This document shows, one piece after another, positions 21,426-32,296 of a stretch of DNA of 32,296 nt (positions within the stretch are counted from its first letter, which is position 1; each line of letters opens with the position of its first letter). The DNA lies in contig JADHXQ010000059.1 in assembly GCA_016782885.1 (NCBI GenBank), positions 1 through 32,296 on the forward strand, given 5' to 3'. The notes beneath the pieces were generated by a model, which did no database searches, was not told the DNA's origin, and was given only the letters and a program-made list of their open reading frames with translations. The stretch is from Phycisphaerae bacterium. Lineage in GTDB: Bacteria; Planctomycetota; Phycisphaerae; SM23-33. A program made the translations under genes and the position numbers.

Positions 21426-22736
21426 GTGATACCATCCGTCCGATTCATACTGCTTGTCCTGATGGCCGCCCCGCTGTTCCTGGTGGGCGCCTTCATCGAG
21501 GCCATGACGGCCATCGGGATACTCTACGTGGGCTTCCTGGCCCTCTGGGCGCTGTCGGACATGCTGCTGGCGACGCGCAAGAGCAGGATCCTGACCACCC
21601 GCGTCGCACCGGTCCGCTTCTCGCTGGGTGTGCCCACGCGAGTGATAGTCAAGGTCGAGAACTCCAGCCGCCGCACGGTCCACCTCCGGTTGGCCGAACG
21701 CCTGAGTGAGGGCATGGAGGTCGTCCGCGAAGCCCCGGAGGTCCGCCTGGGGCCCGGGGAGCGACGGCAGGTCGAATACCGCCTGCTGGCCAGGCGGCGG
21801 GGCAAGTACCTCTTGTCGCAAATGGATGTTCGCGTCAGACCGAAGAGAGGACTGTTCATCAGGCAGTTCCGCCGCGACCTTCCACAGGAGATCCAGGTCT
21901 TCCCAAACCTCGCGAACGTCAGGAAGTACGAGTGGCAGTTGCGAAAGGGACTCGCAATCGAGCAGGGACTCGCCAGGCTCAGGAAGATCGGGCAGGGCTC
22001 GGAGTTCGAGAGTCTCCGCCTGTACGCACACGGAGACGACCTGGGGCACGTCGACTGGAAGGCCACCGCAAAACGCGCCGAACTGCTCGTCCGCAACTAT
22101 CAGCCCGAACGCCAGCAGAGCGTGCTGGTGGCGATCGACGTCGGACGCGCTACCGCCGGAGAGTTCGAAGGCATAAACCGCCTGGATTACCTGGTCAACT
22201 CGACGCTCATGCTCGCCTACGCCGCGCTGAGGCACGGCGACTGGTTCAGCCTCGTGGCGTTCAGCGACCAGATCGAAAGCTACCTTCCGCCGGTGAGAAA
22301 CATCAAGTGCATCGAGCAGGTCGCCCAGGCACTCTACAGGCTCGAACCGAAACTCACAGAAGCCGACTACGCCATGGCGTGCAGGTTCCTCGGTCTCAAG
22401 AGCCGCAAACGCAGCCTTATCTGCCTGATGACCGACGTGATAGACCGCCAGGCCAGCGACGTGATGATAGCCTACATGTCACGCTTCGCACGCCGCCACC
22501 TTCCGCTCGTGGTGACGCTGGCCAACACCGAAATCATGGACGCCGCCGATCAACCGCTCGCCAAAATGACGAACCCATATCGAAAGGCCGCCGCCCTGGA
22601 TGTCATGACCGCGAGGAAAGAGGCTCTCGTCGCCATGCGGCGTTACGGCGTGGGCGTACTCGACGTCCCCCCCAAGGCGATGACGCCCGAACTGATCACA
22701 CGATACATCGAGATCAAATCCTCAGGCCGCCTGTAG
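21426..22736 (+). CDS. DUF58 domain protein (VWA-like partner of MoxR)
   Basis: 436 aa, GTG start with GAGGAA about 12 bases upstream. Two N-terminal hydrophobic segments (LLVLMAAPLFLVGAFIE and MTAIGILYVGFLALWALS) anchor it. A beta-rich outer part follows (VIVKVENSSRRTVHL), then the DUF58 core with GSEFESLRLYAHGDDLGHVD and WKATAKRAELLVRNY, followed by a VWA-type fold (VLVAIDVGR, DWFSLVAFSD, LICLMTDVIDR). The metal-binding DxSxS pattern of a full VWA site is altered to DVGRA. Paired with MoxR, as in many bacteria. Confidence 0.95.
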   Translation: MIPSVRFILLVLMAAPLFLVGAFIEAMTAIGILYVGFLALWALSDMLLATRKSRILTTRVAPVRFSLGVPTRVIVKVENSSRRTVHLRLAERLSEGMEVVREAPEVRLGPGERRQVEYRLLARRRGKYLLSQMDVRVRPKRGLFIRQFRRDLPQEIQVFPNLANVRKYEWQLRKGLAIEQGLARLRKIGQGSEFESLRLYAHGDDLGHVDWKATAKRAELLVRNYQPERQQSVLVAIDVGRATAGEFEGINRLDYLVNSTLMLAYAALRHGDWFSLVAFSDQIESYLPPVRNIKCIEQVAQALYRLEPKLTEADYAMACRFLGLKSRKRSLICLMTDVIDRQASDVMIAYMSRFARRHLPLVVTLANTEIMDAADQPLAKMTNPYRKAAALDVMTARKEALVAMRRYGVGVLDVPPKAMTPELITRYIEIKSSGRL

Positions 22737-24607: not shown

Positions 24608-24850
24608 CTCAATATCCCTTGCCTGAGACCGTCCCTGAGCCGACCGGAGACAATATGACACCCGATCCCGGTCTCGTCAAGGCCAAATAAGGAAGTGTTC
24701 GTCTCGTCTGATCAGTCATCCCAGGGCAATTCGGGCTCCCGGCAAACCTCGCGGCGGACATGTTCGAGGAAGTCGGAATCGACCTCGCAGGTGATACCGC
24801 CATCCGCTGGAAAATGTTGCGAAATCGGACCGCTTGGCGACAATAGCGGC

Positions 24851-26902
24851 ATGACTACACAAGTACATCTCCGTCATCCGCGTCATTTCCGCTTTCACGC
24901 CGCCTGGTGCGTCACGCTTCTTGTCGCAACCGCTTGCGGTTTCGCCGACGTTCTACCGAAGACAATCGACGGAGGTCCGCCCGGCGACATGATGAAGCGA
25001 TACCTGCTCAAGCAGTCCCTCGACGCCTGCGGGCTGTGGCGCAAGCGATACGAGCAACTCAAGACACCCGAGCAGATCGCCGAATACCAGAAACGCCGGA
25101 AGACCTTCTTCGCCAGGCAGCTCGGCGACTGGCCCAGGCGAACACCGTTGAATCCGCGGGTGGCGGGCAAAGTTCAACGCCCCGGGTTCACCGTCGAGAA
25201 AATCGTCTTCGAGTCCCAGCCCAAACACTACGTGACGGCTGCAATGTTCATGCCCGACCCAACGCGGCACAAACCGCCCTACCCCGGCGTGCTCGTACCC
25301 TGCGGACACAGCGCGCTGGGCAAAGGCTGCGACCCGTATCAGCGCGCCGCGATGCTGCTGGCGATTAACGGAATCGCCGCGCTGGTGTTCGACCCGATCG
25401 ACCAGGGCGAGCGAGGACAATTGCTCGACAGCAAAGGCCGCCCGCCGATGTGGGGCACCAAGGCCCACACCATGCTCGGCGTGGGCAGCATCCTGGTCGG
25501 ACGAAACACCGCGTGGTTCGAGATTTGGGACGGTATGCGGGCCATCGACTACCTGCAATCGCGCCGCGAGGTCGATCCCAAACGCATCGGATGCACGGGC
25601 AACAGCGGCGGCGGTACGCAGACATCGTATCTCATGGCGCTCGATGAGCGTATATCCTGTGCGGCCCCGGGCTGCTTCCTGACCAGCAGCCAGCGCCTCG
25701 CACAGACGATAGGCCCCGGGGACTCCGAACAGAATATCTACCGCCAGACCGCCTTCGGGATGCACGAAGCCGACTACGTCCTGATGCGGGCGCCGAAACC
25801 AACGCTTATATGCTGCGTCACCAGAGACTTCTTCGACATCAGCGGAACGTGGGACACCTTCCGCAACGCCAAGCGAATCTACACGCGACTGGGCTTCTCC
25901 GAGCGCGTGGATCTCGCCGAACAGGATGAGAAACACGGTTTCCACATGCAGTTGCGGGTGGCGATGGTGCGTTGGATGATGCGATGGCTCGACGGGAAAG
26001 ACAAAGCGATCACCGAACCGGACGATCTGAAGCCCCTGACCAAAACCGATATCCAATGCACGCCTACCGGACAGGTCATGGCGATCAAAGGCGCCCGCTC
26101 GGTCTACGACATAAACGACGACCATGCAGCCGTGCTCGCAAAACGGCGCGAAGAACTCTGGAAACCCGAGCGGCAGGTTGAAACGCTCAAACAGGTCGCC
26201 GAACTGGCGGGCATACGCCCCCTGGACCAATTGCCCGCGCCGATCGTGACCCGGGCGGGCAGCGTCAAACGAAGCGGATATAGCATCGAGAAACTCGTAA
26301 TCAAACCCGAAGCGGGCATCTACCTGCCGGGATTGCTGTTCACGCCGGACAAGAAGGCAGGCGCCCCGCCGGTGCTGTATGTCCACGAGAGCGGAAAGAC
26401 CGCCGACGCCGGAGACGGAAAACCGATCGACAAACTCGTCGCAAGCGGGCGCGTCGTTCTCGCGGTCGACCTGCGAGGAATCGGAGAAACCGCCCAGAAA
26501 AGCCAAAGAAAATTCTCATCACACTTCGGCGGCGACTGGAAGGACTTCTACTCGGCATATCTGCTAGGCCGATCGTACGTGGGAATGCGCGCCGAAGACG
26601 TCCTCCTCTGCGCCCGATGGCTCGCTAAACACGAAAAGAACGCCTCGGTAGCCCTAACCGCCGTCGGACACGTTGGCGTTCCCGCACTGCATGCCGCGGC
26701 AATCGAATCCGATCTGTTCGCTTCGGTCAAACTCGCCGGGACGCTTACGTCATGGTCGGACGTCCTGGCAAAACGCATCGTCAAGAGACAACTGATAAAC
26801 ACCGTCCACGGAGCCCTGGAAGCCTACGACCTGCCCGACCTGACGGGCGCAGTCGGCAAGAAACTAACCATCGTAGATCCCACAAGCGCAACTGGAAAAT
26901 GA
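24851..26902 (+). CDS. Secreted double-domain esterase-like hydrolase (acetyl xylan esterase-like; second domain lacks Ser)
   Basis: 683 aa; I start at ATG 24851, where a signal peptide begins (AAWCVTLLVATACGFA, perhaps with a lipoprotein cysteine C29), although no good Shine-Dalgarno precedes it. An earlier in-frame start gives an implausible N-terminus. Domain 1 (about 100-440) has the nucleophile elbow GCTGNSGGGT (S252), an acid candidate in CCVTRDFFDISG, and histidine in DEKHGFHMQL, like the abhydrolase/acetyl xylan esterase families. Domain 2 (about 500-683) repeats the fold (YLPGLLFTPDKKAGAPPVLY, VVLAVDLRGIGE), but the elbow reads AVGHVGVPA, with V608 in place of Ser. Likely a non-catalytic copy. 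Exported deacylase of a sugar operon. Confidence 0.85.
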   Translation: MTTQVHLRHPRHFRFHAAWCVTLLVATACGFADVLPKTIDGGPPGDMMKRYLLKQSLDACGLWRKRYEQLKTPEQIAEYQKRRKTFFARQLGDWPRRTPLNPRVAGKVQRPGFTVEKIVFESQPKHYVTAAMFMPDPTRHKPPYPGVLVPCGHSALGKGCDPYQRAAMLLAINGIAALVFDPIDQGERGQLLDSKGRPPMWGTKAHTMLGVGSILVGRNTAWFEIWDGMRAIDYLQSRREVDPKRIGCTGNSGGGTQTSYLMALDERISCAAPGCFLTSSQRLAQTIGPGDSEQNIYRQTAFGMHEADYVLMRAPKPTLICCVTRDFFDISGTWDTFRNAKRIYTRLGFSERVDLAEQDEKHGFHMQLRVAMVRWMMRWLDGKDKAITEPDDLKPLTKTDIQCTPTGQVMAIKGARSVYDINDDHAAVLAKRREELWKPERQVETLKQVAELAGIRPLDQLPAPIVTRAGSVKRSGYSIEKLVIKPEAGIYLPGLLFTPDKKAGAPPVLYVHESGKTADAGDGKPIDKLVASGRVVLAVDLRGIGETAQKSQRKFSSHFGGDWKDFYSAYLLGRSYVGMRAEDVLLCARWLAKHEKNASVALTAVGHVGVPALHAAAIESDLFASVKLAGTLTSWSDVLAKRIVKRQLINTVHGALEAYDLPDLTGAVGKKLTIVDPTSATGK

Positions 26903-26914
26903 AGGAGCCGCACC

Positions 26915-28432
26915 ATGCCGCAATACCTGCTGGCCCACGATCTCGGGACGTCCGGAAACAAGGCCGCCCTCTTCGACACCGACGGGCAAATGGTCGCCTC
27001 GCAAACCAGCGCCTACGACACGAACTTCTTCAATAACAACTGGGCCGAGCAGAACCCCGCCGACTGGTGGCGGGCGGTCTGTGAATCGTCCCGGGCGCTG
27101 CTGACCGAAATAGACCCCGGAGACGTCGCGTGCGTCGCGCTCAGCGGGCAGATGATGGGATGCCTACCCGTCGGCGCAGACGGCGAGCCCCTTCGACCGT
27201 CGATGATCTACTGCGACCAGCGGGCTACCGAACAGGCCGACCGCCTGACCAGCGAGATCGGGCCCGAAGAGTTCTACGCCATCGTCGGACACCGCATAAG
27301 CGCATCCTATTCGATCGAAAAGTTGATGTGGCTCAAAGACAACGAACCCGACACCTACGCGGCCACCGCACACATGCTAAACGCGAAAGATTACGTCAAC
27401 TTCAAGCTCACCGGGCAAATCGCAACGGACTATTCCGACGCCTCGGGGACAAACGCTTTCGATCTGAACACGTTCAAATGGTCCCAGCCGATCGTCGAAG
27501 CCGCCGGCGTCAGCGCCGCGATGCTGCCCGAAACTCGCCCATCTACCGACATCCTGGGCAAGATCACCAGCGCCGCGGCTGGGGCGACCGGACTTGTCGA
27601 AGGCACGCCGGTGGCGGTCGGCGGAGGCGACGGCAGTTGTGCGGCCGTCGGGGTCGGGTGCGTCCGGGCGGGCATGGCGTACGGGTATGTCGGCTCATCG
27701 TCGTGGATCGCGCTGGCCTCGGAAAAACCCATCGTCGATCCGCAGATGCGCACGATGAACTGGGCTCACGTCGTGCCAGGTTACCTCCACCCGGCAGGGA
27801 CGATGCAAACCGCCGGATCGTCGTATCAATGGCTCAAAAACGAGATCTGCCGCGCCGAAGCCGCCGAGGCCGCCGCACAAGACATTGATCCATACGCACT
27901 TATAGATGCACAAATCGCCGACTCACCGCCCGGAGCAAACGGTCTGGTCTTCCTTCCGTACCTGATGGGCGAACGCACACCGCGATGGAATCCCAACGCG
28001 CGCGGGGCGCTGGTCGGCCTGACACTCGCCCATAAACGCGCCGATATGCTGCGGGCCGTGCTCGAGGGCGTCACGTATAACCTCTGCATTATCGCCGACA
28101 TCTTCCGCTCGCATGTACCGTTCGACAGCGTCACCGTTATCGGCGGCGGGGCCAAGGGCGCCGTCTGGCGCCAAATGATGGCCGACATCTACAACTGCCG
28201 CATCCAGAAACTAAACGTGCTGGAAGAGGCCACCTCGATGGGCGCCGCGGTGACAGCGGGCGTGGGCGCCGGCGTGTTCGAAAACTTCGACGCGATCGAC
28301 CGCTTCATCAGCATAGACAGCACCTGCCAGCCGGACGCCGACGCCGCCGCCCAATACGAAAAGATCAAACCGATCTTCGAGAAGTGCTACCACGCGCTCG
28401 TCGACGTTTACGAAGACATGGCGGAATTATAG
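26915..28432 (+). CDS. FGGY-family carbohydrate kinase (xylulokinase-like)
   Basis: 505 aa; AAGGAG 8 bases before the ATG and 12 bases after the hydrolase stop, so same operon. The N-terminal HDLGTSGNKAALFD is the phosphate-binding loop, WAEQNPADWW and ALSGQMMGCL are FGGY landmarks, and IYCDQRA contributes the catalytic aspartate region. GGGDGSCAAVGVG is the adenosine/phosphate loop of domain 2, and VIGGGAKGAVWRQMMAD is the FGGY signature. Length fits xylulokinases (about 480-500). FGGY kinases phosphorylate xylulose, ribulose, fuculose and others. I favour xylulose because the upstream protein resembles xylan esterases, but this is not proven. Cytoplasmic. Confidence 0.93.
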   Translation: MPQYLLAHDLGTSGNKAALFDTDGQMVASQTSAYDTNFFNNNWAEQNPADWWRAVCESSRALLTEIDPGDVACVALSGQMMGCLPVGADGEPLRPSMIYCDQRATEQADRLTSEIGPEEFYAIVGHRISASYSIEKLMWLKDNEPDTYAATAHMLNAKDYVNFKLTGQIATDYSDASGTNAFDLNTFKWSQPIVEAAGVSAAMLPETRPSTDILGKITSAAAGATGLVEGTPVAVGGGDGSCAAVGVGCVRAGMAYGYVGSSSWIALASEKPIVDPQMRTMNWAHVVPGYLHPAGTMQTAGSSYQWLKNEICRAEAAEAAAQDIDPYALIDAQIADSPPGANGLVFLPYLMGERTPRWNPNARGALVGLTLAHKRADMLRAVLEGVTYNLCIIADIFRSHVPFDSVTVIGGGAKGAVWRQMMADIYNCRIQKLNVLEEATSMGAAVTAGVGAGVFENFDAIDRFISIDSTCQPDADAAAQYEKIKPIFEKCYHALVDVYEDMAEL

Positions 28433-28434
28433 CA

Positions 28435-29430
28435 ATGAGTATTCGACAGCGCACCATCGACGCGATCGAACACCGCCCGCTCGACAGCGTCCCCTACCAC
28501 ATCCGCTTCACGCAACCCGCCCGCGAAAAGATGGCTCACCTTTACGGCGACCCCGACTTTGAAGCATCACTGGGCAACTGCCTGTCGGTCTATCGCCCTC
28601 GCCGCCTGACGGAGATTCGAGCGAACATCTGGCGGGATGAATTCGGCGTGGAGTGGGACCGCACCGTCGACAAGGATATCGGCGTGGTGGCAGGCACGCT
28701 CATCACGCCCGAAACGCTCGCCGACTTCCAGTTCCCCGACCCCGACGCCCCGGCGATCTATGCGGACTTCGAAACCACCGGTAACGAGTTCGGCGACACG
28801 CTGGCCGTAGCCAAGCTCAGCTACAACCTCTACGAACGAGCCTGGTCGCTGGCGGGAATGGAGAACCTGCTGACGGCGATGATGACGGATCCACAATTCG
28901 TCCACAACCTGCTCGACCGCATCACCGAGTACAACCTCGCCGTAATCGAAAACGTCTGCAAATGGAACATCGACGCGATCCTGTTTGGTGACGACTGGGG
29001 CTGCCAGGGCGGACTCCTCATGGGCCCGCACCTCTGGCGGGAGTTCATCAAACCACGCATCGCACGCCTTTACCAGGGGGCCAAATCCCATGGCAAATAC
29101 GTCTTCATCCACTGCTGCGGACGTGTGCAGGAATTGTTTGACGAGTTGATCGAATGCGGTATGGACGTGTTCAATCCGTTCCAGCCCGAAGTGATGGACG
29201 TATTCGAAATGAAAAAGCAATTCGGCGACCGCCTGACCTTCTACGGAGGCATCAGCACGCAGCAGACCCTGCCATTCGGCACCGTTGCGAACGTAAGAGA
29301 CGAAGTGCGCCGCCTCCTTGACGAAGTAGGCCAATCAGGCGGATACATAGCCGCCCCCGCCCACGCCATCCCCCCGGACGCAAAACCCGAAAACATCGCG
29401 GCAATGATAGAAGTCCTGCAAAACCAGTAA
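28435..29430 (+). CDS. Uroporphyrinogen decarboxylase (URO-D) family protein, methyltransferase-like subtype
   Basis: 331 aa from ATG 28435, two bases after the kinase stop. URO-D family traits: PLDSVPYHIRF near the start, FGDDWGCQGGLLMGP, and the cavity block HCCGRVQELFDELIECGMD with FYGGISTQQTLPFG. The true HemE motifs (RPVWLMRQAGR near the N-terminus) are absent, so this is not haem synthesis. It fits the MtaA/CmuA-like group that moves methyl groups with corrinoids, or the unassigned group found in carbohydrate operons. The HCCG pair of cysteines could bind zinc. Placement after an esterase and a sugar kinase suggests removal of methyl groups from sugars, or another role in the pathway, by inference only. 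Confidence 0.9.
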   Translation: MSIRQRTIDAIEHRPLDSVPYHIRFTQPAREKMAHLYGDPDFEASLGNCLSVYRPRRLTEIRANIWRDEFGVEWDRTVDKDIGVVAGTLITPETLADFQFPDPDAPAIYADFETTGNEFGDTLAVAKLSYNLYERAWSLAGMENLLTAMMTDPQFVHNLLDRITEYNLAVIENVCKWNIDAILFGDDWGCQGGLLMGPHLWREFIKPRIARLYQGAKSHGKYVFIHCCGRVQELFDELIECGMDVFNPFQPEVMDVFEMKKQFGDRLTFYGGISTQQTLPFGTVANVRDEVRRLLDEVGQSGGYIAAPAHAIPPDAKPENIAAMIEVLQNQ

Positions 29431-29489
29431 TATAGGCTCTGTTGCCAAGCAATAAACGGGGAAATATGCAAAAAACTCTTGAACAATAC

Positions 29490-29552
29490 TTGACATAAGA
29501 CTAAACTATTTTCCTGATATAGTCGATTTTCTTAAACAGGAAATGTTATACT
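29490..29552 (+). promoter_or_regulatory. Promoter/operator region of the AbiE-like pair
   Basis: TTGACA (29490-29495) with TGATAT (29515-29520) at 19 bases is one candidate promoter. TATACT (29547-29552) is another -10 that would start transcription almost at the ATG 29562 (leaderless). An inverted repeat TTTCCTG (29510-29516)/CAGGAAA (29537-29543) and a third AGGAAA (29556-29561) lie between them, a layout suited to binding by the wHTH antitoxin. AGGA is only 2 bases from the ATG, too close for a normal Shine-Dalgarno. Confidence 0.4.
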
Positions 29553-29561
29553 ATTAGGAAA

Positions 29562-30689
29562 ATGCTAACAACAAAGGAAATCTTGGCGAGGATTGAGGAC
29601 CAAGGCGGTCTCGAGTTGAGTCCTGTCAAGCTTACGCGGGATATCACAAGTATTACAACCGATGAGGCGCCAGGATATGAGCCAATAGCAACTGTCCATC
29701 TCCAAACTCAGATATCGGGGAAGGACTTTTTCTTTGTGTCTTCGATCAGTGCGGTCAGCACGCCTAAAGCACTACAGGGAACCATCGATAGCGCCATCGA
29801 CCAGGCCAAGCTGTACGCCGGGGCGTGGGGGTCGTGTTTTCCCGACATGGTCTACTTACCCTTGGTTATCGCCCCCTACCTGTCCCAGGATCGTCTGGAT
29901 GAACTGCAAGAGCAGAAATGCTGCGGCGTGGACCTTTGCGGTAACGGCGTTATCGTGGCTGAGGGAGTGTTGATCTACAGAACCGGCAAACCGAATCGCT
30001 ACCCCAACACCGCTGAGATTCGCAACGTGTACAGACGGAAGTGCGCTCTGATTCCGCAAGCACTTATTCTCAAACCGTTGTTTGGGGCCGTAAAGGAACT
30101 CGTCGAATTCATCAACGCCCGCGGCGGGAACATAACCTTCGCAACGGTGTCCAAGGTTCTCAAGCAGTTGGAAGAAGACCTGGTTATCGCGCGTGAGGCG
30201 AAGTCCCTCCGCCAGATTCAACCGGAGAAGATCCTCGACGCCCTCAGCACGAACTACCGGCCACCCAAGATTACAAGCAACTGGATCGGCAGGTGCAACG
30301 TCGCCAGCCTGACGGAACTGGTCGCCCCACTACAACAGGCCGCCTCGGCACAAGATAAACGATTTGTTCTGACCGGAGCAGCATCGGCCAATCAGTATTG
30401 CACCTTCGGCGGCGAACAGATTGTCTCGGTTTATACAGACGCATCCATTGCCCCACTTCTGGAGGCTTCCGGCGGACAATACGAGGAAGGGAAGCGATTC
30501 GCCAATCTGGAGATATTCCAAACCTTCTCAGACTGGGTCTATTTTGACCCGAGGGACAAAGACGGGCTGCAGGTTGCTTCCCCGATCCAGGCGTACATCG
30601 AATTGGCCAATGGCGACTCACGCCAGCGGCAGGCGGCCGATCAGATTCGCCAGCGGATTCTGGCGGACCTGGCCGATAGGAGCGAGTAA
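29562..30689 (+). CDS. AbiEi-like antitoxin/transcriptional regulator
   Basis: 375 aa. The N-terminal ~160 residues are mixed alpha/beta, with VYLPLVIAPYLSQDRLDEL and CGVDLCGNGVIVA, resembling the (V/I)DL(S/C)GN strand block of AbiEi-type proteins. A winged helix-turn-helix (about 172-225, VKELVEFINARGGNITFATV then SKVLKQLEEDLVI) probably binds DNA. The C-terminal part, with RFVLTGAASANQYCTF and IVSVYTDASIAPL, matches AbiEi C-terminal domains. These antitoxins repress their own promoter and block the toxin. The stop overlaps the toxin start by one base (TAATG). Codon use and GC are lower than in the operon to the left, consistent with acquisition. Confidence 0.85.
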   Translation: MLTTKEILARIEDQGGLELSPVKLTRDITSITTDEAPGYEPIATVHLQTQISGKDFFFVSSISAVSTPKALQGTIDSAIDQAKLYAGAWGSCFPDMVYLPLVIAPYLSQDRLDELQEQKCCGVDLCGNGVIVAEGVLIYRTGKPNRYPNTAEIRNVYRRKCALIPQALILKPLFGAVKELVEFINARGGNITFATVSKVLKQLEEDLVIAREAKSLRQIQPEKILDALSTNYRPPKITSNWIGRCNVASLTELVAPLQQAASAQDKRFVLTGAASANQYCTFGGEQIVSVYTDASIAPLLEASGGQYEEGKRFANLEIFQTFSDWVYFDPRDKDGLQVASPIQAYIELANGDSRQRQAADQIRQRILADLADRSE

Positions 30690-31576
30690 TGATGATGGAA
30701 GACTGGTCCATGGGCGTTCTCAAGAGTTGCCTTCTCGATCTGTTGCGGGAGTTGGAGGACAAGAATTTCCCCCTCATTCTTTGCGGTGGTTTCGGACTGT
30801 ACCTCAAACAACTTGATCTGCAGGAGCGCGGTGACAACTATCATCCACTGCTTCCGAACGAACAGTGGCCACGCCCCCGAACCACCAGTGATCTGGACAT
30901 CCTGATTCGAACGGAAATACTGGTTGACACAGAACGATTCAAACTGCTCAGGGGGATCCTGGACAATTTGGGATACAAACCAATTCCCGGAGCGGAGTAC
31001 ATGCAGTTCGTTCGCCGCCTTAACAATGGCAACGATGTGAAGGCCGACCTGCTGACCGGACCGGTCGCCACGACACTGGTCAATAAGCTCAATATCGGAG
31101 ATCGACGGATCCGCCCAGCCGAACAATCGGTCGGCCTGCATGCATACAGAACCGATGAGGCGGTAGGCTTCCAGGAGAACATGCAAACGATCCAGATCGA
31201 AGGCTATTGCACAGACCAACGCCCTTACCGCAACAGCATATCGGTTCCTCAGGCAGTTACATTTCTGATGATGAAGCTATTCGCCTTTCGCGACCGCAAC
31301 CAGGACCCTGACAAAGACTTCGCCCGACATCATGCGATGGACATCTACCGTGTGGTGGCTATGCTGGATCATGACGAGTTCCGTCAAACCCGGTCGGCCA
31401 TTTGCGATTACTGGGACCGCGATGTTGTGCAGGAAGCAGGTAAACTCGTGAATGAGCATTTCTCCGAGTCAACAGCTCTGGGTCTGATCCGTCTGCGGGA
31501 ACACGACCTGTTCGACTCTGAAATGGACGTGCAGGAGTTCTCGCGAGCCCTGGCCGACCTCTTCGCAAAACCGTGA
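30689..31576 (+). CDS. AbiEii-like nucleotidyltransferase toxin
   Basis: 295 aa; AGGAG 7 bases before ATG 30689 (the following ATG codons are alternatives). The nucleotidyltransferase signature is CGGFGLYLK (G33-G34) and TTSDLDILI (D68, D70), with a third acidic candidate in VKADLLTG. The later block MMKLFAFRDR with DKDFARHHAMDIYRVV is the conserved K/R..D helix region of AbiEii toxins. Members transfer nucleotides (MenT-type enzymes to tRNA ends) and arrest growth, giving abortive infection against phage. Whether this pair acts that way is inference from family and order. A terminator and tRNA fragment lie just downstream. Confidence 0.88.
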   Translation: MMMEDWSMGVLKSCLLDLLRELEDKNFPLILCGGFGLYLKQLDLQERGDNYHPLLPNEQWPRPRTTSDLDILIRTEILVDTERFKLLRGILDNLGYKPIPGAEYMQFVRRLNNGNDVKADLLTGPVATTLVNKLNIGDRRIRPAEQSVGLHAYRTDEAVGFQENMQTIQIEGYCTDQRPYRNSISVPQAVTFLMMKLFAFRDRNQDPDKDFARHHAMDIYRVVAMLDHDEFRQTRSAICDYWDRDVVQEAGKLVNEHFSESTALGLIRLREHDLFDSEMDVQEFSRALADLFAKP

Positions 31577-31591
31577 AGCAGCCACAAGAAA

Positions 31592-31615
31592 AGCCCGGAT
31601 CTTTAATTCCGGGCT
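31592..31615 (-). terminator. Terminator, oriented for the former tRNA-Gly gene
   Basis: Perfect 8-base arms AGCCCGGA (31592-31599) and TCCGGGCT (31608-31615), 8-base loop. On the minus strand the stem is followed by TTTCTTG, whereas the plus side continues CTTCAAG. It lies 20 bases after the 3' end of the tRNA fragment, as a tRNA terminator would, and may also end the AbiE transcript. Confidence 0.6.
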
Positions 31616-31634
31616 CTTCAAGCGTTTCCGATAC

Positions 31635-31678
31635 AGCGGCCGAAGGGATTCGAACCCTCGACGTTCAGCTTGGGAAGC
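31635..31678 (-). other. 3' fragment of tRNA-Gly(CCC): candidate att site of an integrated element
   Basis: On the minus strand GCTTCCCAAGCTGAACGTCG and GAGGGTTCGAATCCCTT run into CGGCCGCT, i.e. the anticodon loop TTCCCAA (anticodon CCC), the 3' anticodon strand, variable loop, a complete T arm and the 3' acceptor strand with discriminator. CCA is not encoded. The 5' half (acceptor GCGGCCG, D arm) is missing: the preceding bases do not pair with the acceptor and lack D-loop GG. Such 3' tails are what site-specific integration leaves at the distal end of an element. By orientation the element lies to the right and an intact tRNA-Gly would be further right, beyond the window. Confidence 0.7.
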
Positions 31679-31875
31679 GGACTTGTCGTGCCCTTAGCCT
31701 TTGTAAGGACAAACGGTTACAACGCGGCAGCGCACTGGGTGACCAACTCGGTGCCGGAATTCCGGGCACTGTTGTCCACCATTGGCCGACATTGGGATAA
31801 TCAGTAAATGTATGGTGCAGAAACTCGCTGATCCGGGGTAGTAGAAAGGAATCCTCAATTGTTCTTCGCCGACGG

Positions 31876-32193
31876 TCATTTCTTCTGATTGCGTTTCATA
31901 TCGAAGATCATCTTGTTGGTAAGTTTGAATTTCAGGCGGTTGCTCAGGAGCGTCATGTTCGTGCCCCGGCTTGACACGGCTTGCCTCAACCCTTTCAGAA
32001 ACTCCCGATCCTGTATTTCCCGACGGGTTCTGGGGAGTTTCTCACTGCCGCCGGGACAGTACATCAGTTGTAGCGAGATGATGTCTCCGGCCTTGGCCTT
32101 GATATGCCGCGGCAGGGAGGGGAAGTTCACGAATTTCACGTGAGTACTCGTGGCCCGATCGACCGCTAGCCCAACCTTCGCACTTTGGGGTCA
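31876..32193 (-). CDS. Hypothetical small protein, possibly the 3' part of a broken gene
   Basis: A frame starting at GTG 32139 gives 87 aa (MKFVNFPSLPRHIKAKAGDI at the N-terminus, LSNRLKFKLTNKMIFDMKRN near the end), basic, with no signal peptide. There is no ribosome binding site, and the sequence looks coding already upstream of the GTG (GLAVDRATSTHVK), back to an in-frame TGA at 32193-32191. The same frame remains open from that TGA to the window edge. So this may be the 3' half of a gene broken by a stop, or a small gene with an unrecognised start. No family recognised. It lies on the presumed mobile-element side of the tRNA fragment. Confidence 0.4.
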
Positions 32194-32295
32194 ATCTGTG
32201 ACGTAAGTCCTTTGTTTACATTCAAACAGGCCGTAGGTCTTCACTACAGGCCGGGCGTTTTCTCGGCCGGCGAGGGCGGAATCTGTTCGGTGGTG
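32191..32295 (-). pseudogene. Possible 3' end of a frame interrupted by TGA, running off the window
   Basis: The minus-strand frame ends TDSALAGRENARPVVKTYGL then FECKQRTYVTD and the stop. It is in the same frame as the basic protein downstream. Too short to prove coding and no family recognised, so this is listed only as a candidate partner of the neighbouring frame. Confidence 0.25.
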
Positions 32296-32296
32296 A

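Follow-up and report, generated by a model that had tools for sequence, protein, structure and literature searches.

Islands that enter tRNA genes by way of tyrosine integrases are well described, and the 3' part of the target gene commonly marks their passage. In the Islander survey, 3' fragments were left by 3760 of 3919 islands, 2083 islands were anticodon-centred, and 125 tandems of two or more were counted (PMC4383910). The integration modules of phage lambda and KplE1, as well as SGI1, are the other described systems closest to the locus reported here. This locus contains a 5'-less fragment of tRNA-Gly(CCC), which is very probably the attR-type remnant of a tyrosine-integrase island that entered this gene, with the island lying to its right and the chromosome to its left.

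The analysed window of 32,296 nt is the whole of contig C51 of its source genome (G000), a 91%-complete assembly of 187 contigs. Two sister species of the same genus (G001 and G002) served for comparison, 41 genomes were included in the motif census, and further fragment sites were taken from a public genome collection (JAACET010000132, JAGXKT010000030, and JAAAPI010000355) and from the IMG/VR contig IMGVR_UViG_3300011118_002165 (L165). Positions relative to tRNA sequences are given as negative upstream of a 5'-less fragment and as positive downstream of a tRNA 3' end.

The interval 31635–31678 on the minus strand is the exact 3' 44 nt of a tRNA-Gly(CCC), comprising two bases of the 5' anticodon stem, the loop TTCCCAA, the 3' anticodon stem, the complete T arm, the acceptor 3' strand, and the discriminator. 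The fragment is collinear with its tRNA, like the displaced 3' fragments of tRNA-targeting tyrosine-integrase genomic islands, and the match to the intact tRNA-Gly(CCC) of G002 is not due to chance, because 47 of 48 positions are identical (97.9% over 48 nt, E ~1e-16, BLAST). The anticodon loop, with GC/GC on either side, is the presumed crossover region. No tRNA was called in the window by ARAGORN or Rfam, and a 5' half was not detectable in 31679–32296 (best local score 9 vs a shuffle maximum of 12); elsewhere in the assembly, the sole match was a tRNA-Gly(GCC) gene. After the fragment, a strong hairpin with a T-run at 31592–31615 (-) folds at -21.4 kcal/mol (z = -4.25) and constitutes the original tRNA terminator, retained on the chromosomal side. 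A simple consensus scan did not list it; its region is homologous, at 83% over 64 nt of which 17 nt belong to the tRNA, to the terminator region that follows a comparable remnant in G002. The preliminary description of this DNA, a 3' part of tRNA-Gly(CCC) lacking its 5' half and followed by a terminator, is thus confirmed, and a nearby 5' half, which it had named as evidence against an integration scar, was not encountered. Some tRNA-Gly fragments of relatives are broken by short GC-rich, REP-like hairpin inserts (L064:8767-8917, L089:8051-8095, L165:1-125), which repeatedly hit the T loop just 5' of GAATCC or a similar sequence.

Among the tRNA-Gly genes of the source assembly, TCC and GCC are present, and an intact tRNA-Gly(CCC) was not found at 91% completeness, as would be expected were the rebuilt gene to sit in the unassembled gap. 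No integrase gene was identified in the window, the visible part of the island included, and none of the integrases elsewhere in the assembly is linked to this site; the predicted intact tRNA-Gly(CCC) with an adjoining integrase could therefore not be recovered from the source genome. Contig C113 (L137, right end) carries a second att scar of the same genome: an integrase frame at the contig end that runs into the 3' half of a tRNA-Ser(TGA). Two closely related integrase genes (G000:C184:6-518 and G000:C29:6-506) are both truncated by the contig start at an identical position, which suggests that an integrase 3' end or an att region is repeated.

Alignment of the sequences that precede 3' fragments in other genera revealed the 17-nt motif GCACCRAGTTGGTCACC, which occurs in the window at 31738–31754 (-), 75–76 nt from the scar. 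Its first 16 bases have 16 exact matches in the 41 genomes, compared with none for a reversed control pattern; 14 of these matches are at tRNA-Gly genes or fragments, and two fall within coding-like DNA. At tRNA-Gly sites the motif takes two positions only, namely -75/-76 of 5'-less fragments and approximately +186 to +238 after tRNA 3' ends. The upstream position is occupied, besides in the window, at eight displaced tRNA-Gly fragments: G016:C61, G016:C98 (TCC), G012:C2, G011:C57 (two mismatches), JAACET010000132, JAGXKT010000030, JAAAPI010000355 (TCC), and, at -75 of a tRNA-Gly(GCC) fragment, L165. The downstream position is found after intact tRNA-Gly genes on G016:C154, G016:C22, G012:C20, and G006:C67, often as paired copies 31–32 nt apart, and more diverged copies are present in G026 at +196 and +259. 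The two positions are the two sides of attP, split to attR and attL on integration. A variant, GCACCATTTTCGGCACC, lies in G007 at +197 of an attL (C191) and at -77 of an attR (C27), as expected for two ends of one island type, and a third version, GTGCAAGGATTCGTAC, was detected in G023 and JAGXKT010000030.

For the family as a whole, position and conservation thus indicate that arm-type sites recur at set distances to either side of the core, as in a lambda-like att site, and the window displays the right arm. On these grounds we read the window copy, GCACCGAGTTGGTCACC, which starts 76 nt from the scar at the right end of the element, as a putative arm-type site, which would be bound by the N-terminal, arm-binding domain of the integrase. 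Between core and arm, a TAANNNNTTR sequence, present in the window as TAACCGTTTG at 31710–31719 (-), recurs at -40 to -42 in seven of the nine fragments of this arm class, the window included; by analogy with lambda, it resembles an IHF/HU bending site at the position of H' and may serve as such. Apart from these spaced arm and IHF-like sites, the DNA upstream of the fragments differs between relatives. The C-terminus of a protein gene was considered as the source of the conserved upstream sequence and ruled out, as frames and stop positions are not common to the loci and the neighbouring genes differ. A scan of viral contigs with a composite pattern returned chance matches only, and one with the bare motif a single real site, L165. 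This contig is filed as viral, and the cargo beside its fragment comprises a type I restriction methylase and a CD-NTase with an AGS_C sensor domain, so that it looks like the end of a defence island.

Intact-tRNA ends of such islands carry integrase genes in relatives. A phage-type integrase gene (PF00589) converges on the intact tRNA on G016:C154, G012:C20, and G007:C191; on the first two contigs, a few hundred bases separate its end from the tRNA, placing integrases at the attL of islands with the same arms as in the window. The PF00589 integrase on G007:C191 runs up to the tRNA, its open frame extending into the tRNA sequence, an arrangement noted for some integrases (PMC4383910). Moreover, both arm sides flank one and the same fragment at G016:C61, G011:C57, G007:C27, and L143 (JAACET010000132); these sites are islands stacked in tandem.

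On the chromosomal side, window positions 24817–29429 are collinear with G002:C22:90929-95555 (80% identity) and positions 27752–29430 with G001:C252. Both syntenies stop at the end of a URO-D-like gene (29430), and comparison of these sequences confirms that the DNA up to this point is chromosome. Synteny does not run on to the scar itself: the URO-D-like gene is followed in G001 and G002 by a large convergent repeat-protein gene and in the window by an AbiE-like gene pair. The HEAT-repeat-like gene that occupies this place in the sister species was not found among the loci of the source genome that were examined. In G002, the same chromosomal flank leads to the homologous terminator and remnant; 3.6 kb beyond these lies an intact tRNA-Gly(CCC), oriented as predicted. 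The tRNA-Gly(CCC) site has therefore been used before in this genus. The gene to the right in G002 has no orthologue in the source genome; a DNA search then showed that G002 DNA 7.7 kb beyond the intact tRNA is collinear with contig C92 of the source genome up to position 22234, with 2.9 kb of non-syntenic DNA between this position and the contig end. This places the island between the right ends of contigs C51 and C92. The equivalent interval in G002 is 22.7 kb of variable DNA, including the intact tRNA-Gly(CCC) and the decayed fragment, and 31679–32296 has no counterpart in G001 or G002. Between conserved flanks, the left one and C92 on the right, the DNA thus differs in close relatives. Among the relatives, this exact left flank was not seen next to an empty site, the flank in G002 carrying a remnant as well.

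The motif at -76, the left synteny, and the arrangement in G002 independently support the polarity initially proposed, with the element running right from 31679, and with it the view of the fragment as a scar left by an integrase at a tRNA-Gly 3' end. In G002, an intact tRNA-Gly(CCC) occupies the place and orientation predicted for the far end of the element; the source assembly contains none.

The AbiE-like pair (region 29431–31576, genes at 29562–31576, plus strand) deserves separate consideration. It encodes a 375 aa HTH protein and a 295 aa nucleotidyltransferase-like protein, and its naming derives from a sub-threshold AbiEi_2 match of the former (E = 0.12) together with a reading of the sequence of the latter; Pfam, NCBIfam, and PADLOC yielded nothing above cut-off for an AbiE assignment. 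The second protein has no relative in G001 or G002 and was matched (45% identical) only in G005 among 40 relatives. The GC content of the region is 53.3%, compared with a minimum of 56.9% among the 2.1-kb windows to its left (chromosome 60%). Because of this low GC and the lack of a sister-species relative, the pair is accessory DNA; it lies on the chromosomal side of the scar, as had been supposed, but is not core chromosome. Its foreign-like composition and absence from the sister species, as well as the tandem junctions that do occur at this site in relatives, would fit an element to the left that carries the pair, the fragment then being its tRNA-side end or a tandem junction. Such an element is improbable. 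The original terminator follows the fragment, no left-arm motif was found within 400 nt to the left even with up to four mismatches, no arm motif occupies +186 to +240, where elements have their other arm, and 29430–31590 contains no second tRNA-Gly end (score 12 vs a shuffle maximum of 14). That a 3' half stands alone might also recall a tRNA gene that is split or holds an intron, its 5' half lying elsewhere. This is hardly credible, given that the fragment begins two bases ahead of the anticodon loop rather than at an intron splice point, that the genome yielded no 5' half, that relatives possess an ordinary uninterrupted tRNA-Gly(CCC), and that the upstream DNA varies between relatives outside the spaced sites. 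An assembly chimera, conceivable in a genome of 187 contigs, is very unlikely as well, since the distance between fragment and arm agrees within one base with that at eight independent sites in other assemblies.

How much of the island persists is a question of a different kind, since a scar from which most of the island has been lost would be a later state of the same integration event and overlaps with the preferred reading. The island is visible for approximately 490 bp (31679–32166, 53% GC), its boundary being set by comparison with other attR sites and by composition; this half kilobase is too short a stretch on which to call the island undescribed, as the preliminary description did. Within this tip, 31876–32139 (-) is the 3' end of a protein gene without a Pfam or NCBIfam match, which has a paralogue on contig C52 (76% nucleotide identity) and is cut at 32167 by a multicopy repeat. 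This repeat (32167–32296) has 99–100% identical copies at the ends of C16, C52, and C107, is probably an insertion-sequence end, and accounts for the contig break. A lone truncated gene and a multicopy repeat starting 0.49 kb into the island are what would be expected if the fragment, the right arm, and a few hundred bases remained, overgrown by insertion sequences and gene fragments, and G002 holds a clearly decayed remnant of this kind, broken by a hairpin insert. The window fragment, however, is intact over 44 nt, and its arm and IHF-like sites fit the consensus, arguing for a recent or maintained end. We regard extensive loss as a possibility of some weight, though one we are inclined to doubt; the island may be a degraded or decayed remnant rather than a functional element.

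We thus favour an island that inserted at tRNA-Gly(CCC), and the course of events may be pictured as follows. Recombination in the anticodon loop would have brought an island with a tyrosine integrase into the tRNA-Gly(CCC) gene. With the copy of the tRNA 3' end that the island carried, a complete gene would have been restored at the far end on the right, up to which an intact island could extend, while the original 3' end with its terminator would have been pushed to the left end, yielding the fragment seen today. The GCACCRAGTTGGTCACC site, 76 nt inside the island, would be contacted by the arm-binding domain of the integrase, and a bending protein of the IHF/HU type could act between it and the core, in a layout like that of the phage lambda P' arm.

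Taking the sites in other genomes into account, we tentatively propose, at somewhat less than even confidence, a widespread, mainly planctomycete group of defence-carrying islands that target each of the three glycine tRNAs at its anticodon loop. Their arm codes, GCACCRAGTTGGTCACC, GCACCATTTTCGGCACC, and GTGCAAGGATTCGTAC, would be interchangeable at constant spacing, and members with differing codes would stack in tandem at one tRNA, each being excised only by its own integrase. This offers a testable claim on how islands stacked at a single tRNA are kept apart. Motif and spacing also provide a sequence handle with which to find and bound glycine-tRNA islands in uncultured planctomycetes, useful where the integrase and the second end escape notice because assemblies are fragmented.

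SGI1 is not known to use tRNA-Gly, and its hosts are unrelated. It resembles the present family in that repeated integration results in tandem arrays whose members are separated by a copy of att (PMC2297512). With the lambda and KplE1 (tRNA argW) modules, the family shares a core that lies within or close to a tRNA 3' end, short arm-type sites repeated at fixed distances on both sides, and, between core and arm, a probable site for a host bending protein; it differs in its putative arm sequence, which is unrelated, in its glycine tRNA targets (CCC, TCC, and GCC), and in that the little cargo seen is island-like rather than phage (PMC2951348). Islander-type tDNA islands have in common with it the displaced 3' fragment, a presumed anticodon-loop-centred crossover, tandem arrays, and, here seen in relatives, a tyrosine integrase and a tRNA regenerated at the other end (PMC4383910); the island described here differs in being only partly assembled and in showing a recognisable arm motif, specific to the lineage, at a fixed distance. 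The mechanism is the established, textbook one of tRNA islands, to which this locus and its relatives add an arm motif that spans lineages at constant spacing.
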